Part shown: piece after piece, positions 645 to 35,227 of the stretch
Layout: every line of letters begins with the position of its first letter
How positions within the stretch are numbered: the first letter of the stretch is position 1
Source: Candidatus Gastranaerophilales bacterium
GTDB taxonomy: Bacteria; Cyanobacteriota; Vampirovibrionia; Gastranaerophilales; Gastranaerophilaceae
Length of the DNA: 37,168 bases
Reading direction: 5' to 3'
NCBI GenBank assembly: GCA_944323595.1
Contig: CALUTF010000017.1
Location: 1 to 37,168, forward strand
Program-made: the position numbers and the translations under genes
The notes under the pieces: model-generated
Seen by the model: only the letters and a program-made list of their open reading frames with translations
The model's database searches: none
Told to the model about the DNA's origin: nothing

Positions 645-2273
645 ATGAATAAGGTTTTAGAGAATAGATATTTAATTGGATTATGTATTTTAACACTAAT
701 TGCCGTGTTTGTTTTTGCGGGGCATTATAGTGAAATTCTGCTGGATTTCGGACGGGAGGTTTATTATCCGGAGAGAATTCTTGAGGGTAAAGTCCTTTAT
801 AAAGATTTATTCAATATTTACGGACCGTTTTCATATTTATGGAACGCGGTTTTGTTTAAAATCTTCGGGAGTTCGCTTAATACGCTTTATGTTTCCGGCG
901 GTGTTTGTTCACTGCTTGCTGTCAGCGGAATTTATTTAATCTCAAGAAAATATCTTTCTGAAATTTTGAGTTTCTCCGTCGGAATTTTTACAATTGCAGC
1001 CGGTGTGTGCGCGGTTAACTTATTTTCGTATACATTTCCTTATTCCTGGGGAATGCTGTACGGGCTGGTTGCTTTTTTGTACTCGTTTTTATTTTTAATA
1101 AAATACGTTAAGGGCGGGGAAAACAGTAAAATATTCTTATATATAAGCGCTTTTCTGGGCGGGCTTGCTGCTGCAAATAAATATGACTTTATTCCTTATC
1201 TTATATTGATAATTTTTGCTGCGGCAAAGGGAAAAGATTGGAGAGTTATTCTTAAAACCCTTGGCTCAATGATTGCGGTACCGGTTTTATGTATGGTAGT
1301 TTTGTTTCTTCAGGGGATGAAAATTTCTGATTTTATTAACTATCTTTTGACTGTAAAGAAAATGGCAGATACGGAAACTTTGCGTTATTTTTATCTGACG
1401 CAGGGTGTTTATTTTAATAAAAATGCAATTCCGGTCTGGATTGTAAGTCTTATCAAAACAGGCTTGACGCTCGGCGGTGTTATATGGGGTGCTTCGTTAT
1501 TTGAAAAGAGAAAAATTCTTTCCGAGACTATTGTTGCGCTTTCAATTTGTTTGGGCTTTTCATTTATGTCACCTGTTTCATTTTCATTTTTTGTAATTAT
1601 AACGGCTGGCATGATGATGTTCAGACTGAAAGATTATAATCTTTTGATTCTTGCCGTCGGTGCCGTACTTGTAAGCCTTAAATCTTTCTGGGGGCTTTCG
1701 TATATGAATTACGGAAACTATTACCTGCCTGTTATTTTAACCGCATTTTTTGCTTTATTATTTTCATTTGTGTCCGGAAAATTTCAAAAGATTACGGCTG
1801 TTTATATGTTTGTGATTGCTTTTGCTGTTTTGTACGGGAATATTCAGTCGTTTAAAAATCTTGATTATAAAATTACTACTTCGAAAGGTACAATATACAC
1901 TAATAAAAGTCTTGCGGAATCCACAAATGCTCTTGTGGCTTATACTGATGCCAAATTTGATAAAGATGCGCGGTTTGTAATTTTTCCTGAGGGGTTAATA
2001 GTGAATTTTCTTACCGGCAGAAAATCAGAGGATTTTTATAATTCAATGCTTCCGTTATATGCGGAAACTTTCGGAGAGGATAATATTACTGCCTATTTTA
2101 GTCAAAACAAGCCTGATTACATTATTTTCAACAACAAAAGTATGAAAGATTATTATTTTGAATATATTTGTAAAGATTATGCTCTTGGATTCTGCGGGTT
2201 TGTTCAGGAAAATTATTCAATGGAAAAATTTATTCAGAACGGTAATAATTACCTGATTTTCAGAAAAAATTAA
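645..2273 (+). CDS. GT-C type membrane glycosyltransferase (GT39/ArnT-like)
   Basis: A 542-aa polytopic membrane protein with roughly 10-12 hydrophobic helices and a soluble C-terminal third. Asp34 and Glu38 (LLDFGREVYYPERIL) just after the first helix match the acidic motif in the first periplasmic loop of GT39/PMT-like enzymes, which transfer sugars from polyprenyl-phosphate carriers; the following KDLFNIYGPFSYLWNA block is typical of that family. The acceptor cannot be read from the sequence. A TTG at 627 would add six residues, but the ATG at 645 is preferred because TACATT (631-636) looks like a -10 box 8 nt before it, which would make the mRNA leaderless. The stop overlaps the stop of the convergent protease-like gene by 4 nt. 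Confidence 0.7.
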   Translation: MNKVLENRYLIGLCILTLIAVFVFAGHYSEILLDFGREVYYPERILEGKVLYKDLFNIYGPFSYLWNAVLFKIFGSSLNTLYVSGGVCSLLAVSGIYLISRKYLSEILSFSVGIFTIAAGVCAVNLFSYTFPYSWGMLYGLVAFLYSFLFLIKYVKGGENSKIFLYISAFLGGLAAANKYDFIPYLILIIFAAAKGKDWRVILKTLGSMIAVPVLCMVVLFLQGMKISDFINYLLTVKKMADTETLRYFYLTQGVYFNKNAIPVWIVSLIKTGLTLGGVIWGASLFEKRKILSETIVALSICLGFSFMSPVSFSFFVIITAGMMMFRLKDYNLLILAVGAVLVSLKSFWGLSYMNYGNYYLPVILTAFFALLFSFVSGKFQKITAVYMFVIAFAVLYGNIQSFKNLDYKITTSKGTIYTNKSLAESTNALVAYTDAKFDKDARFVIFPEGLIVNFLTGRKSEDFYNSMLPLYAETFGEDNITAYFSQNKPDYIIFNNKSMKDYYFEYICKDYALGFCGFVQENYSMEKFIQNGNNYLIFRKN

Positions 2274-5200
2274 GAATATATAATTCCTTTTTTGGTTTTG
2301 TCCATGATATCCCAGAGAATTTTATCTACAAGTTCTAATTCTTCCTGTTTTTCCGGTGTTTGGGCGGCTTTCCAGTCTGCAAGTTCTTTTCTGAAAATAT
2401 CGCCGTCAACCAGACAGTCGCCTGTTCCTACACGGGAAGAGTATTTTTCGGTGAATTTCTGATTGAAATCAGCGTATGCTTCGGTTATAAAATCTGAGGC
2501 GGTGGAAGCATTTCTTAAAATTATATTCATATCTGCATCAAGGGCTGCTTTTCTGAGTTGTGACATTTGCCCGTCAGAGGTGTCAATATGAATTTTACCT
2601 GTATGTTTGCCCAGTCCCATTTCTGTAATCATAGCTTCTGCAAGGTATGTTGCGTTTTTAAGGTCACCTGATATTCCGTAAGAACCGTCTATCCCGAAAA
2701 ATTGATGTTCAGCGGAATTTCCTCCGTATGAGCAAACTATATTGGAGAATAATTTTTCAAAAGATTGTTCGCCGTTATTGTCTTTATGGTGATACATTGC
2801 ACCTCCGAATATTCCGCGCGGGTCAAGAGTTATGAAGTTAACTTTATCAGGAATATGCCATGGTTTGCCCATTTGTTTTATCAGATTATTCATAACTTCT
2901 ATGTTTACTGCATGACCGCATTCGTGGGAAGTAACAATCATTTTTTCATGCGGTTCCATGTGATTATTTGCCGGTCTGCCTGTTGATATTTGCAGGTAGG
3001 CTTCAGTAAAATCATCTTTTCCCACACTTCTATGACCTCGTTCAAGTGCTACTGCCTGTGCACGTTTGACAAAGTTTTTCAGGTATGTGAACGGAAATCC
3101 GTTTGTTGTCATTGCGATTGATTGGATTATATTTTTGCGTTCTTCAGGTGTTTTGGCTGCAAGTTTAATTTTATTTTCTTTCAGCGTACTTTGGATAACT
3201 TCTGCGCGTTCTTTACTGCTGAATGCGGGGGTAGTAACTTCAAGCCGGTCAACAAATTTTACGGAATTTCTTGCGGCTTCGCTTAATATTTGTGCTCTTG
3301 AGATGGAGCCGGCAACAAGAATGTTAAAACCTGCTTTTTCGGCTTTCTCCATTTCACTTACCAGCTGCGCCATAGCTCTTTGGTGATATCTGTTCAGGTA
3401 TTCGCCCAGAATAAAGTTATCAAATTTATCTATGAAAAGTACGGCAGATTTGTTAGGGTTTGCATCTGCCTGTGTTGTCAAAAGGGAGAATACTTTCTTT
3501 ACTGCGGCTTCCGGTGTCATTGCGGAGGCTTCTCCGAATATGTTTACGCCCTCAGAACCAAAATAGTTTGCATCTATTTCTACATAAGGAACTTTTGCTT
3601 CTCCTGCTATTGCTTGAGCCGTAAATCTTCTGCCGCTTCCTGCCATAGGGTCAAGCGAATACAGAATTATTCCTTTTGTGCCCATTTTGTTTGATTTAAT
3701 CTGGCGGACTATAGACATTGCTTCTTTTTTTGTAGCTTCTTTGCCTATTATATCTTTTATTCTTTTACCTGTGTCAAAGATGATATCTACGGAGCTGTCA
3801 TCATTTGTTTTTTTGAACAAATCTTTGGCTTCCTTTACGTATTCTGCAACGTCTTTTTCATTAATTTCACGTTTGTCGATGTAGTAACTGACTATTTTTT
3901 TCATCAGACGCTGGGTTTTGTCTGGGAAAATACCGTCAAGCATTGCTGAGGCTTCTACGGTTTTTTCAAGTGCACCTTTTGTGAAACTCTTTTTAATATC
4001 TTTTCTTAAGAGCGGTTGTTCTTTGAACTCTTTTATGACATCTTCCGTACTCAAAACGGGGATGGAGGCTTCTTCAAAGTTCTGGTACATGTTCTGGATG
4101 ATAGGATTTTGAATTTGTTTATACAAATTATCTCTTGTATCAAACATTATAAATTTTATATTGTTTGGCGGATTTTTCATAAGGTTGACGTATTCTGATG
4201 AAAATGCATAAACACCGTTTCCGGCTTCCTCTAAAGATGCCGAATTTACAAGCATATTGGCAGGATACATCATTATTATATGGGTTTTTGTCTTGTCTTT
4301 TGCAAGATTTTTTATTTTTTCATATAAATAAGTATCTTTTATTGCTGTATTTATTTCTACAATATTGGTATTATCTTTGTTAATACGACCAAAGCCGTTT
4401 GGTTCATCATTTAATACATGGTAAAGGCTCGGTATAAAATATTGGGGAGTAGTTTTTTGAGGTTCAAATGTTACGTACATATTTGTACCGAGTGAAAGAT
4501 TTTTCCATACATTACGGGCTTTTTCGTCATATCTTCTAAAATGAGGTCTGTTTTTTAACGGTGTTGATTCCAGCATTAGAGTGTCATTTAATTCATAAAT
4601 AACGGAATTTGTAAATTTTCTGACATCATCCTTATTTCTTGCAAAAATAGCAGCATTTACTATATTAAAGTTTTCAATTGGTTCGTTATCGCTTTGACGG
4701 TATGCAAGGATATCGCTTACAAGCCCTTTTGATAATAAATGATCAGGATTAGGGTTGATTTTTTCTTTTGGCAGTCTTTTGATAATACTGTCAACTTCCC
4801 GTAATTTTTTTTGGACTACTTTTTTTACTTTTTTTCTGGCATCTTTATCTTTAAACATTGCGCCGGTAGTATAGTTTTCAAAAAGTCCTATGACGTTATT
4901 TCTGTCCAGAGAATCATAGTCGGTCTGTTCTTCATCAAGAGATTTTATTACTGATGCAACTTCTATCAGTGCGGCTTTTATTATGTGATAGTGGTTGATT
5001 TCATTTTGACCTGATGCATTTGCAATTTCTTTGGCTTTATTAATAAAGTCGGTTGCCGTATCAGTAGCATGGTATTTTATAATGTCTTCTTTTGTTTTTA
5101 TTTTGACTATAGGAGTGTCATCCTGACCTTTAAAGCTAAGGGCGTAATTTTTATATGAATTAGCAAAATTTTTATCCATCAAGGGATTTTGTGTGTAAGA

Positions 5201-5287
5201 TGTATTATTTTGAGGGGTTGATTTTTTATTTTTGTTATTCTGCGGGGCAGACTTTATGTTAAATTGCGGTATTATTTTATTTATCAA
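2270..5287 (-). CDS. FtsH-like zinc metalloprotease with degenerate AAA module
   Basis: A 1005-aa protein whose C-terminal half follows FtsH: linker (F..DIIGKEATKKEAMSIVRQIK), AAA module (about 525-730), then peptidase M41. The zinc site is intact: HECGH at 788-792 and the third-ligand Asp875 in SGDLKNATYLAEAM. The ATPase is not: Walker A reads GSGRR (550-554; K and T replaced by Arg) and Walker B reads FIDKFD (Asp620, catalytic Glu replaced by Lys621). Residues 75-115 resemble a Clp N-domain helix pair, and 330-510 could be a second, more eroded AAA or ClpB-like domain. No transmembrane helix is visible, whereas FtsH normally has two. The start is TTG at 5287 with AAGGAG 7 nt upstream. Protease activity without ATP-driven unfolding is inference; a regulatory or structural role is the alternative. 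Confidence 0.75.
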   Translation of the reverse strand: MINKIIPQFNIKSAPQNNKNKKSTPQNNTSYTQNPLMDKNFANSYKNYALSFKGQDDTPIVKIKTKEDIIKYHATDTATDFINKAKEIANASGQNEINHYHIIKAALIEVASVIKSLDEEQTDYDSLDRNNVIGLFENYTTGAMFKDKDARKKVKKVVQKKLREVDSIIKRLPKEKINPNPDHLLSKGLVSDILAYRQSDNEPIENFNIVNAAIFARNKDDVRKFTNSVIYELNDTLMLESTPLKNRPHFRRYDEKARNVWKNLSLGTNMYVTFEPQKTTPQYFIPSLYHVLNDEPNGFGRINKDNTNIVEINTAIKDTYLYEKIKNLAKDKTKTHIIMMYPANMLVNSASLEEAGNGVYAFSSEYVNLMKNPPNNIKFIMFDTRDNLYKQIQNPIIQNMYQNFEEASIPVLSTEDVIKEFKEQPLLRKDIKKSFTKGALEKTVEASAMLDGIFPDKTQRLMKKIVSYYIDKREINEKDVAEYVKEAKDLFKKTNDDSSVDIIFDTGKRIKDIIGKEATKKEAMSIVRQIKSNKMGTKGIILYSLDPMAGSGRRFTAQAIAGEAKVPYVEIDANYFGSEGVNIFGEASAMTPEAAVKKVFSLLTTQADANPNKSAVLFIDKFDNFILGEYLNRYHQRAMAQLVSEMEKAEKAGFNILVAGSISRAQILSEAARNSVKFVDRLEVTTPAFSSKERAEVIQSTLKENKIKLAAKTPEERKNIIQSIAMTTNGFPFTYLKNFVKRAQAVALERGHRSVGKDDFTEAYLQISTGRPANNHMEPHEKMIVTSHECGHAVNIEVMNNLIKQMGKPWHIPDKVNFITLDPRGIFGGAMYHHKDNNGEQSFEKLFSNIVCSYGGNSAEHQFFGIDGSYGISGDLKNATYLAEAMITEMGLGKHTGKIHIDTSDGQMSQLRKAALDADMNIILRNASTASDFITEAYADFNQKFTEKYSSRVGTGDCLVDGDIFRKELADWKAAQTPEKQEELELVDKILWDIMDKTKKGIIYS

Positions 5288-33669: not shown

Positions 33670-34905
33670 TTACGAATTCTGAATTTTTGCGCGTTCCAGC
33701 AGGTTTGTCGGCATATTTTTCTGTTCCTGATTGTATCTGTACTGTGTGAAAGCCCGTGAAACTCCTGCTACAAACATCCCCATAAACAACATTCCGAATA
33801 AGAATGGCACACTTGTTATTAGAGCTTTTTGTTTACAAAGTTTGGCAAATTCATTTTCTACGGTTGTTTTATTTTTTTCTGCCAGTTTTTTTGCAAGTTC
33901 CGGAAGTTCTTTGTACGCCGGCACGTGTATGTCTTGAGATATAGTATCTTTAAAGCTGTCTTTTTTGCGTAATATTTTTTTGAAGCCGCGTTCGAACATT
34001 TCACTGCCGGTTACTACATAAAATCCTACCAGAGGGAATCGGAATAATGTTTCTAAAAAGTTTTGTTTTCCTCTGTCTGCTGAAGAGCCGAAATATCCTG
34101 CTCCGCCAAGCAGAACGCATGACGTTAATTGTCCGTGGCTCAGGCTAAGTTTTCCTTTGTCATCACGAAAATCTAAGCTGAAATATTTATTTACTGTTGC
34201 TGCTTTTTTCTCATTATTTTTAAACAATACGCTTCCCGGTGTCAAAATTATATCGCTTAATTTTTGCAATGCTTTTGAACTCTTACCTTTCTTTACCAGC
34301 AACAGTGATGTCAGCATACATCCGCCAAATGCAGCGGCCGCGCCGAGCATGTGATTTATTGCGCTTTTCTTAACTTTTTCCTGTTTTGACTGTTTTTCAA
34401 TTTTATCTTTATTCAGGTTTGCTATATTATTAAAGTCTGCCTGATGGAATACTTTTAGAGTGAACAGGTTTTTCAGGTAACAGAGGGAATATTCTGCAAG
34501 CGGAATTATCATACAGCTTGCGGCTATAGCGGCTTTGACAGGTTTTATTTCTTTTAATTTATCAGCAGAAATTGCTGCATCCCTGTTAAGCTCTGTCATT
34601 GGCGTGGAAATTTTTTGTTTTAATGATGCATCAAGACCCTTTTGATATATCGGGCGAAATACTCCGTTGCCCAATAATTTCGGGGTATAATATACAAGAA
34701 CGCTTTCTCCAACTTCCTGAAACGAATTCTCGCTCAAATCAGCGAAACTGCGTGCAAAAGTTGCTTTAGGTATAAGGTTTGTCACGGTGTCCTGTACAAA
34801 TCTGACATGTGACAACGATTCAGACTGTTCCTGTTTGGCAAGGAATTTTGTCGTCTTTTTTAAAAGCTTATTGGGTAACGTATTGATTAAATTATTTATC
34901 TGCAT
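33670..34905 (-). CDS. Hypothetical multi-pass membrane protein behind a Trp-codon leader
   Basis: Not recognised. The 411-aa protein has a hydrophilic N-terminus (1-120), likely helices at about 124-146, 184-204 and 362-386, weaker hydrophobic segments at 258-275 and 285-300, and long basic loops (e.g. 160-182, 305-320). It has no signal peptide and no enzyme or transporter motif I can name. The ATG at 34905 has GAGGT 9 nt upstream. Upstream on the same strand lies what looks like a complete tryptophan attenuator, so its expression may rise when charged tRNA-Trp is scarce. That suggests a link with tryptophan supply, but the sequence itself gives no support for transport or synthesis. Confidence 0.7.
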   Translation of the reverse strand: MQINNLINTLPNKLLKKTTKFLAKQEQSESLSHVRFVQDTVTNLIPKATFARSFADLSENSFQEVGESVLVYYTPKLLGNGVFRPIYQKGLDASLKQKISTPMTELNRDAAISADKLKEIKPVKAAIAASCMIIPLAEYSLCYLKNLFTLKVFHQADFNNIANLNKDKIEKQSKQEKVKKSAINHMLGAAAAFGGCMLTSLLLVKKGKSSKALQKLSDIILTPGSVLFKNNEKKAATVNKYFSLDFRDDKGKLSLSHGQLTSCVLLGGAGYFGSSADRGKQNFLETLFRFPLVGFYVVTGSEMFERGFKKILRKKDSFKDTISQDIHVPAYKELPELAKKLAEKNKTTVENEFAKLCKQKALITSVPFLFGMLFMGMFVAGVSRAFTQYRYNQEQKNMPTNLLERAKIQNS

Positions 34906-34941: not shown

Positions 34942-34974
34942 AAAAAAAGCCCGTTCAGACTCTCTCGAACAGGC
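34942..34974 (-). terminator. Attenuator terminator
   Basis: 8-bp stem (34967-34974 with 34949-34956, one G-U), 10-nt loop, U7 tail (34942-34948), 36 nt before the start of the 411-aa gene. Confidence 0.85.
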
Positions 34975-35010
34975 TATTTTATTGTTGTATGTTTTTTATT
35001 ATTCAAATAT

Positions 35011-35088
35011 TTAACGCCAACAAAACGTGCCTGCTCTTTTTTGCAGCCACCACCAGTTTTGAGTTTTGTTTTGTTGGATGTAATTCAT
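35011..35088 (-). CDS. Trp-rich leader peptide, 25 aa
   Basis: ATG at 35088, TAA at 35011-35013. The peptide begins MNYIQQNKTQ, has Trp at 12, 13 and 14 (TGG TGG TGG) and again at 24, and ends FCWR. Four Trp in 25 residues, three in a row, is the pattern of trp leader peptides in several phyla (e.g. NWWW in actinobacterial and SIWWW in alphaproteobacterial trpE leaders, from family knowledge). AAAGGA lies about 14 nt before the ATG, so the ribosome site is weak or leader translation uses another signal. The peptide is probably only a sensor. Confidence 0.7.
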   Translation of the reverse strand: MNYIQQNKTQNWWWLQKRAGTFCWR

Positions 35089-35191
35089 AATTAGTATGGT
35101 TTTCCTTTTTGTACAGATACATAATAACATGAACAAAAAATTTTTTGCGTTTTTTTTATAAAACTTTAAAAATTATTTACTAACGGAAAGT

Positions 35192-35227
35192 AAAAAACAC
35201 TCTTTGCAATAACAAAGAGTGTTTTTT
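35192..35227. terminator. Bidirectional terminator after reverse rubrerythrin
   Basis: Perfect 15-bp stem AAAAAACACTCTTTG/CAAAGAGTGTTTTTT with loop CAATAA. It separates the rubrerythrin transcript from the attenuator region downstream. Confidence 0.92.

Follow-up and report, generated by a model that had tools for sequence, protein, structure and literature searches.

A probable tryptophan-codon attenuator before an orphan gene of Gastranaerophilales, and related leaders of other amino-acid content before its paralogues

The region upstream of the gene of a 411-aa protein in the window (the whole stretch of 37,168 nucleotides that was analysed, from a Candidatus Gastranaerophilales bacterium) is very likely a ribosome-mediated transcription attenuator (probability about 0.9), by which the gene would be turned on when charged tRNA-Trp runs out. 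This response to starvation is inferred, since no RNA-seq or reporter data are available. The logic of attenuation itself is known; what is new is that an orphan protein family is controlled and that the sensed amino acid changes among its paralogues. The elements of the putative switch and its surroundings are the following, in the direction of transcription.

35192..35227, minus strand: terminator of the upstream rubrerythrin gene (terminator scan)
35101..35107, minus strand: Shine-Dalgarno-like AAGGAAA of the leader reading frame (sequence reading only, function inferred)
35011..35088 (read 35088-35011), minus strand: leader reading frame of 25 codons, MNYIQQNKTQNWWWLQKRAGTFCWR, followed by a stop (read from the sequence; translation itself inferred)
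35068..35077, minus strand: 5' strand of the protector helix (segment 1), CCAACAAAAC (complementary over 10 bp, without mismatch, to 35026-35017, GTTTTGTTGG)
35047..35055, minus strand: tandem regulatory Trp codons TGG TGG TGG (sequence; orthologue conservation)
35043..35046, minus strand: inner strand of segment 1, CTGC, which abuts the Trp codons on their 3' side (pairs with GCAG of segment 2 in the fold)
35017..35036, minus strand: segment 2, made of the antiterminator strand GAGCAGGC (35036-35029) and GTTTTGTTGG (35026-35017) (pairs with 34984-34967 when a ribosome is on the Trp codons, by folding)
35017..35019, minus strand: fourth, terminal Trp codon TGG, directly 5' of the leader stop (sequence and leader comparison)
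34967..34984, minus strand: segment 3, CAATAAAAT-A-GCCTGTTC, both the partner of the antiterminator strand and the left terminator arm (pairing, covariation)
34942..34975, minus strand: intrinsic terminator hairpin AGCCTGTTC...GAACGGGCT (segments 3:4), with the hairpin at 34975-34948 and T7 at 34948-34942 (sequence and terminator scan)
33670..34905, minus strand: regulated gene with its ATG at 34905, 411 aa, no known family, Trp-free

An earlier note, made from the sequence alone, had described the 25-codon frame with four TGG codons, the 10-bp inverted repeat, an 8-nt strand able to pair with the terminator, the U7 terminator and the 36 nt that separate it from the ATG of the 411-aa gene, and all of these held base by base. 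The antiterminator of the window is in fact bipartite and of about 17 bp, longer than that 8-nt segment. In it, GAGCAGGC pairs with GCCTGTTC of the left terminator arm over 8 bp, one of them G-U, and GTTTTGTTG has two alternative partners, the upstream repeat (as protector) or CAATAAAAT (34984-34976), which lies beside the terminator arm. The claim that the antiterminator strand is located inside the leader coding region held only in part, since it applies to the long form of the leader and the leaders of many relatives stop earlier. A mechanical scan of the region, in which 0.3 terminator-like sites were expected, rendered two, the second being that of the rubrerythrin gene, and the leader folded better than 200 out of 200 shuffles (z -3.2). 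Because the rubrerythrin gene ends in a separate terminator (35227-35192), the leader is probably driven by a promoter of its own; a scan of the leader region found no sigma-70 consensus promoter.

In the mechanism that we propose, a ribosome would traverse the leader when Trp is ample, and segment 2 would be either covered or taken back into pairing with segment 1. Segments 3 and 4 would then form the terminator, and transcription would halt 36 nt 5' of the gene. Under Trp scarcity, the ribosome would stall at the tandem UGG codons and mask segment 1, and the freed segment 2 (GAGCAGGC plus GTTTTGTTG) would pair with segment 3 (CAATAAAAT plus GCCTGTTC), which would block the terminator and let the 411-aa gene be transcribed. 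The 411-aa protein is devoid of Trp, so that it could be produced while Trp is absent.

Folding of the leader, a check that the earlier note had asked for, was carried out on the full-length leader of the window. The antiterminator was predicted for a ribosome placed on each of the three TGG codons of the tandem, and the terminator for the ribosome-free RNA and for a ribosome on either the stop or the terminal Trp. Over 108 leaders, full-length equilibrium folding with a stalled ribosome favoured the antiterminator in only 21, the terminator winning in most, and the switch must therefore depend on the order of synthesis; timing also matters in the classical attenuation system. As full-length equilibrium folding separates the states poorly, truncated RNAs were used. 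With the RNA cut before segment 4 and a ribosome on the tandem codons, the mean antiterminator probability in the 108 leaders was 0.79, in comparison with 0.42 for the free RNA and 0.35 for a ribosome at the stop; with segment 2 shuffled it was 0.25. The leader of the window showed no separation by this measure (0.55 under stall and 0.55 at the stop).

The tandem-Trp leader is conserved. It was found in all the Trp-type orthologues for which upstream DNA was available, with the exception of one lineage (L025, L192) that has a single Trp, and same-genus orthologues of about 90% identity retain MNYIQQNKTQNWWWLQ(K/I)(R/G)AGTFCWR in the leader. The two tandem W are the sole fixed positions over 89 distinct Trp-type leader peptides, the rest having diverged with no other position close, although it should be noted that tandem WW (89/89) was the criterion by which that scored set was selected. 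A degenerate leader pattern run on 286 genomes matched in 64 of them, once in each, and 63 of these 64 matches were located directly 5' of a family gene of the Trp type. When the pattern was reversed, the same genomes rendered zero matches. Further Trp leaders in the genome of the window were searched for by this kind of pattern only. The genes that flank the leader and its gene differ between genomes and are not conserved, and leader and gene therefore move as a unit. Operon context was considered as a clue to function and dropped, the neighbours being variable among genomes.

Two forms of the Trp leader can be distinguished. Long-form leaders stop about 36-48 nt past the tandem codons and end in ...CWR or ...LSWQ, and short-form leaders, which end in ...WWRL or similar, are the majority among the distinct leaders and terminate shortly past the tandem Trp. 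A terminal Trp codon is present in 33 of 33 long-form and in none of 56 short-form Trp leaders, and a terminal Met codon is present in 41 of 45 Met leaders (see below). An extra cognate codon before the stop was also observed at the ends of long-form Ile leaders. A ribosome modelled at the terminal Trp of the window (35019-35017) favours the terminator; it is possible that this codon sharpens the response, and its presence remains unexplained.

The pairing strands covary. In a set of 99 representative leaders, segment 2 was compared for its pairing with its own and with swapped terminator arms, and its own arm was preferred within the Trp leaders (p=2.9e-9), within the Met leaders (p=3.2e-9) and across types (p=1.5e-10 and 4e-13), p values that ignore shared ancestry. 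Antiterminator pairing was better than in shuffles in 87 of the 99. The strand pairs that change together include GAGCAGGC/GCCTGTTC, ATACAGG/CCTGTAT, GTGCAAGC/GCTTGCAC, GGCGGTC/GACCGCC and GTCAGCTTCA/TGGAGCTGAC, among others. The same comparison supported the inner-strand 1:2 pairing in 75 Trp leaders (p=5e-14) and the outer protector helix in long-form Trp leaders (p=1.6e-6); in the Met leaders the protector 1:2 pairing was weak or absent and did not reach significance. The earlier note had proposed the logic of trpL attenuation and had named beforehand, as a check on it, the conservation of Trp codons and of compensatory changes between antiterminator and terminator in relatives; this comparison was run across the order and passed, and the proposal held. 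The chance adjacency of a short Trp-rich frame and a terminator, in favour of which there is nothing beyond the view of a single sequence, is refuted by the conservation of the tandem Trp, the covariation of the strands and the pattern scan of 286 genomes, and can be all but discarded. These comparisons weigh much more heavily against chance than do the terminator scan and the shuffle test of the single leader.

The leader could also encode a small peptide with a function of its own, or the RNA that results from termination could act in trans as an sRNA, as described for Sinorhizobium meliloti rnTrpL/peTrpL, a Trp-codon attenuator leader whose peptide has functions in trans (PMC7298713). The S. 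meliloti rnTrpL attenuator serves trp biosynthesis. In contrast to it, no sign of control of trp biosynthesis or of a trans function of the peptide was seen here. This possibility is supported by the recurrence of the C-terminus of the long form (GTFCWR, LSWQ), but only the tandem Trp are fixed, the majority of the distinct leaders stop soon after them, the conserved C-terminal nucleotides are accounted for by the strands of the helices, and the covariation can be explained by regulation in cis alone. We consider it very unlikely.

It can also be the case that part of the family is controlled at translation, by occlusion of the start site, or by Rho, and not by intrinsic termination. In favour of this, several short-form leaders have no clear U-tract terminator and carry a hairpin at about 20 nt from the gene start; against it, a stable terminator with a U-run is present in the leader of the window and in most other leaders, albeit not in all, and we regard this alternative as unlikely. 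The short-form leaders concerned (L017, L051, L064, L118 and others) keep the tandem Trp and the pairing without a clear U-rich terminator, which possibly hints at a different output, by translation or Rho.

Transcription attenuation remains the preferred reading for the window, and it is best compared with the trpL leader of the Escherichia coli trp operon. That leader is a ribosome-mediated attenuator (Rfam RF00513, Trp_leader). Our leader satisfies the sequence and pairing criteria of the trpL type, namely a tandem-codon leader, a terminator before the gene, mutual exclusion of antiterminator and terminator with covariation and, in the Trp leaders, protector pairing; the remaining criterion, a rise of read-through on starvation for the cognate amino acid, is inferred. 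Like trpL, it is short, carries tandem Trp codons, can form mutually exclusive 1:2, 2:3 and 3:4 helices and has its terminator 5' of the gene; unlike trpL, it acts on the gene of an orphan membrane-type protein, its host lacks TrpE and TrpA, and its long form has segment 2 within the coding region and an extra Trp codon before the stop. No Rfam family matched the window at gathering score except tRNAs, RF00513 being not matched there. The best RF00513 score in a related locus was 25.2 bits against a gathering score of 41 (L030, a Met leader), and no other relevant Rfam family was found in the related loci searched. The Pfam Trp_leader peptide families stayed below their cut-off (PF08055, E 0.36, 11 bits against 25). 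A T-box riboswitch was looked for in 12 loci, among them that of the window (L002), and rejected, with no T-box match at E values up to 1.

Leader peptides have been surveyed in Proteobacteria and Actinobacteria and, as a novelty at that time, in Firmicutes, where histidine leaders were found before hisS and hisZ and sensor switching was also discussed (PMC2965389). Those leaders are similar to ours in being attenuators outside the classical proteobacterial biosynthesis operons, but they precede genes of the histidyl-tRNA synthetase type, whereas here the sensed codon varies among paralogues of an orphan family. TnaC of the E. coli tryptophanase operon is likewise a Trp-linked leader peptide (PMC8429421), and the operon that it controls includes a Trp permease. 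Free Trp is sensed there by nascent-chain arrest, with induction at high Trp, whereas the tandem codons found here point to induction at low Trp. No methionine-codon leader attenuator, and nothing on the family of the 411-aa protein, was found in the open-access literature searched; as subscription journals were mostly not covered, this is weak evidence of novelty. Our results would bring leader-peptide attenuation to a gut lineage within the cyanobacterial phylum and place Met codons among its sensors.

The change of sensed amino acid among paralogues (Trp, Met, Ile) lay beyond the view of the earlier note. A second copy of the gene, about 42% identical and with a Met-rich leader, is present in genome G000 and in many relatives, and examples of its leader are MSDMMMDMQMMMCMSASVCRM (G000, L032) and MQNNTMMMQMMMMQSLMSGGHCYADRMC (L172).

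G000:C8:5000-9000 (L032), together with L028-L041 and L158-L195: sister paralogues with a Met-rich leader (matching antiterminator and terminator layout)

Beyond the first residue, 45 distinct Met leaders contain a mean of 8.4 Met codons. In the protein tree, the Trp-type proteins form a clade (support 100) and the Met-type proteins a grade, and nested among the latter is a copy of genome G015 (L040/L205, in G015:C33) with an Ile leader, MITSLNIAIISLIIISLLDSKRLLYCECEI, for which matching strands AAGCGGCTTT and AAAGCCGCTT could be read from the sequence. A distant third subfamily of about 350 aa (L042, L198, L206 and similar) has no leader rich in an amino acid. As further observations, the Ile-type protein bears C-terminal repeats, and one Met-type protein (L162, genome G165) has an apparently decayed leader with no Met run left upstream.

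The clades tend to avoid the amino acid that their own leader would sense, which is to be expected if each protein must be made while that amino acid is missing. No Trp occurs in 90 of 96 Trp-type proteins, and all 48 Met-type proteins contain it (means of 0.06 and 2.85 Trp per protein, respectively). Met-type proteins have a Met content of 0.72%, Trp-type proteins one of 1.4% and 24 proteins of the window one of 2.55%. The Ile-type protein has regained Met, with 15 residues within its first 440 against a Met-type maximum of 6. Shared ancestry inflates the p values here, but the composition pattern is consistent in direction for the three amino acids. The sensor changes amino acid while the composition of the controlled protein follows.

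As the earlier note had stated, the controlled gene belongs to no known family: searches of Pfam, NCBIfam and PDB sequences rendered no match for the 411-aa protein, and no sequence match was found in curated families of amino-acid transporters. AlphaFold produced a confident helical model (pLDDT 87.3, pTM 0.81), for which Foldseek found nothing in the PDB at E under 0.001. The best VIA-align Z was 5.7 over 149 residues, below 8, a value that demonstrates neither a known fold nor a new one. The description as a multi-pass membrane protein is plausible and held in part, being weaker than had been put: hydropathy gives three clear membrane segments (about 120-138, 186-204 and 361-379), with a further two or three that are marginal, in a basic protein (62 basic and 36 acidic residues, GRAVY -0.22). 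The protein is unlike a classical transporter, and a role in acquisition therefore rests on regulation and auxotrophy alone.

The closest named relatives are Candidatus Gastranaerophilales metagenome-assembled genomes, with 88-90% identity over the protein. Homologues are present in 29 of 59 relatives and, within the order, in 158 of 286 genomes; outside the order, a sample of the phylum rendered two weak matches only. In the genome of the window (2.05 Mb, 98.5% complete), neither the model of the TrpE N-terminal family nor that of TrpA found a match, while both matched in 14 of 14 control genomes. The host is therefore very probably a Trp auxotroph, with no trp operon for the attenuator to serve, and the claim that the controlled gene is not one of trp biosynthesis held. 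A Trp-type gene is found in one of the 15 relatives, out of 59, that have TrpA, in comparison with 25 of the 44 that lack it (Fisher p=0.0007, uncorrected for ancestry). G046, the single case, keeps its Trp-leader gene in spite of having TrpA and so departs from the auxotrophy pattern. Many Trp auxotrophs have no member of the family at all.

A similar correspondence was found for the other leaders. MetH (Met_synt_B12 domain) and MetE were missing in most of the genomes tested within the order; MetH alone is weakly informative, being absent from half of the control genomes, and MetE was therefore added. Of six genomes tested, IlvC was absent only from G015, which has the Ile leader, a single case. 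The amino acid of the leader thus fits the pathway that the cell lacks, as far as can be judged from single marker genes, a sample of genomes and, for Ile, one genome.

Attenuators are a good clue to function. The Trp, Met and Ile leaders tie an unrecognised family to starvation and make its role directly testable, and the presence of such switches before sister proteins suggests that these help in obtaining amino acids that the cell cannot make. The earlier note had put the protein forward as a candidate for Trp uptake or stress adaptation; a role in Trp acquisition is strengthened by the absence of TrpE and TrpA and is still inferred. Our best guess is that the task of the family is to acquire the amino acid named by the leader, a guess without structural or sequence support, unproven, and slightly more likely to be wrong than right. 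It is possible, on the other hand, that the switch is real and that the protein takes part in a general response to amino-acid starvation, such as an adaptation of the envelope or dormancy, and not in uptake or salvage. In agreement with this, no transporter family or fold was matched, the sequence is strongly basic and moderately hydrophilic with about three clear membrane segments, and many auxotrophs are without the family. But such a response would not need paralogues that are each bound to one amino acid, and the sensed residues match what is missing, that is, TrpE and TrpA, MetE and MetH (in most relatives tested) and IlvC (in the Ile-leader genome only, of six); the balance tilts slightly against it. 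Amino-acid acquisition, our best guess, admits a bolder version, in which Gastranaerophilales have an undescribed acquisition family with paralogues told apart by the leader codon, a copy gaining an attenuator as its lineage loses a pathway (Trp, Met, Ile) and the protein then shedding the residue, and which includes perhaps the first methionine-codon leader-peptide attenuators. Taken as one joint claim, this is only slightly more tentative than our best guess, and somewhat more likely to be wrong than right.

A short N-terminal motif similar to SFKG/TFKA recurs in Met-type proteins (e.g. L028, L030, L035). It was also observed in a 1005-aa AAA/FtsH-like protein of the window (2270-5287, minus strand) and in some neighbouring genes, and might be a sorting signal.
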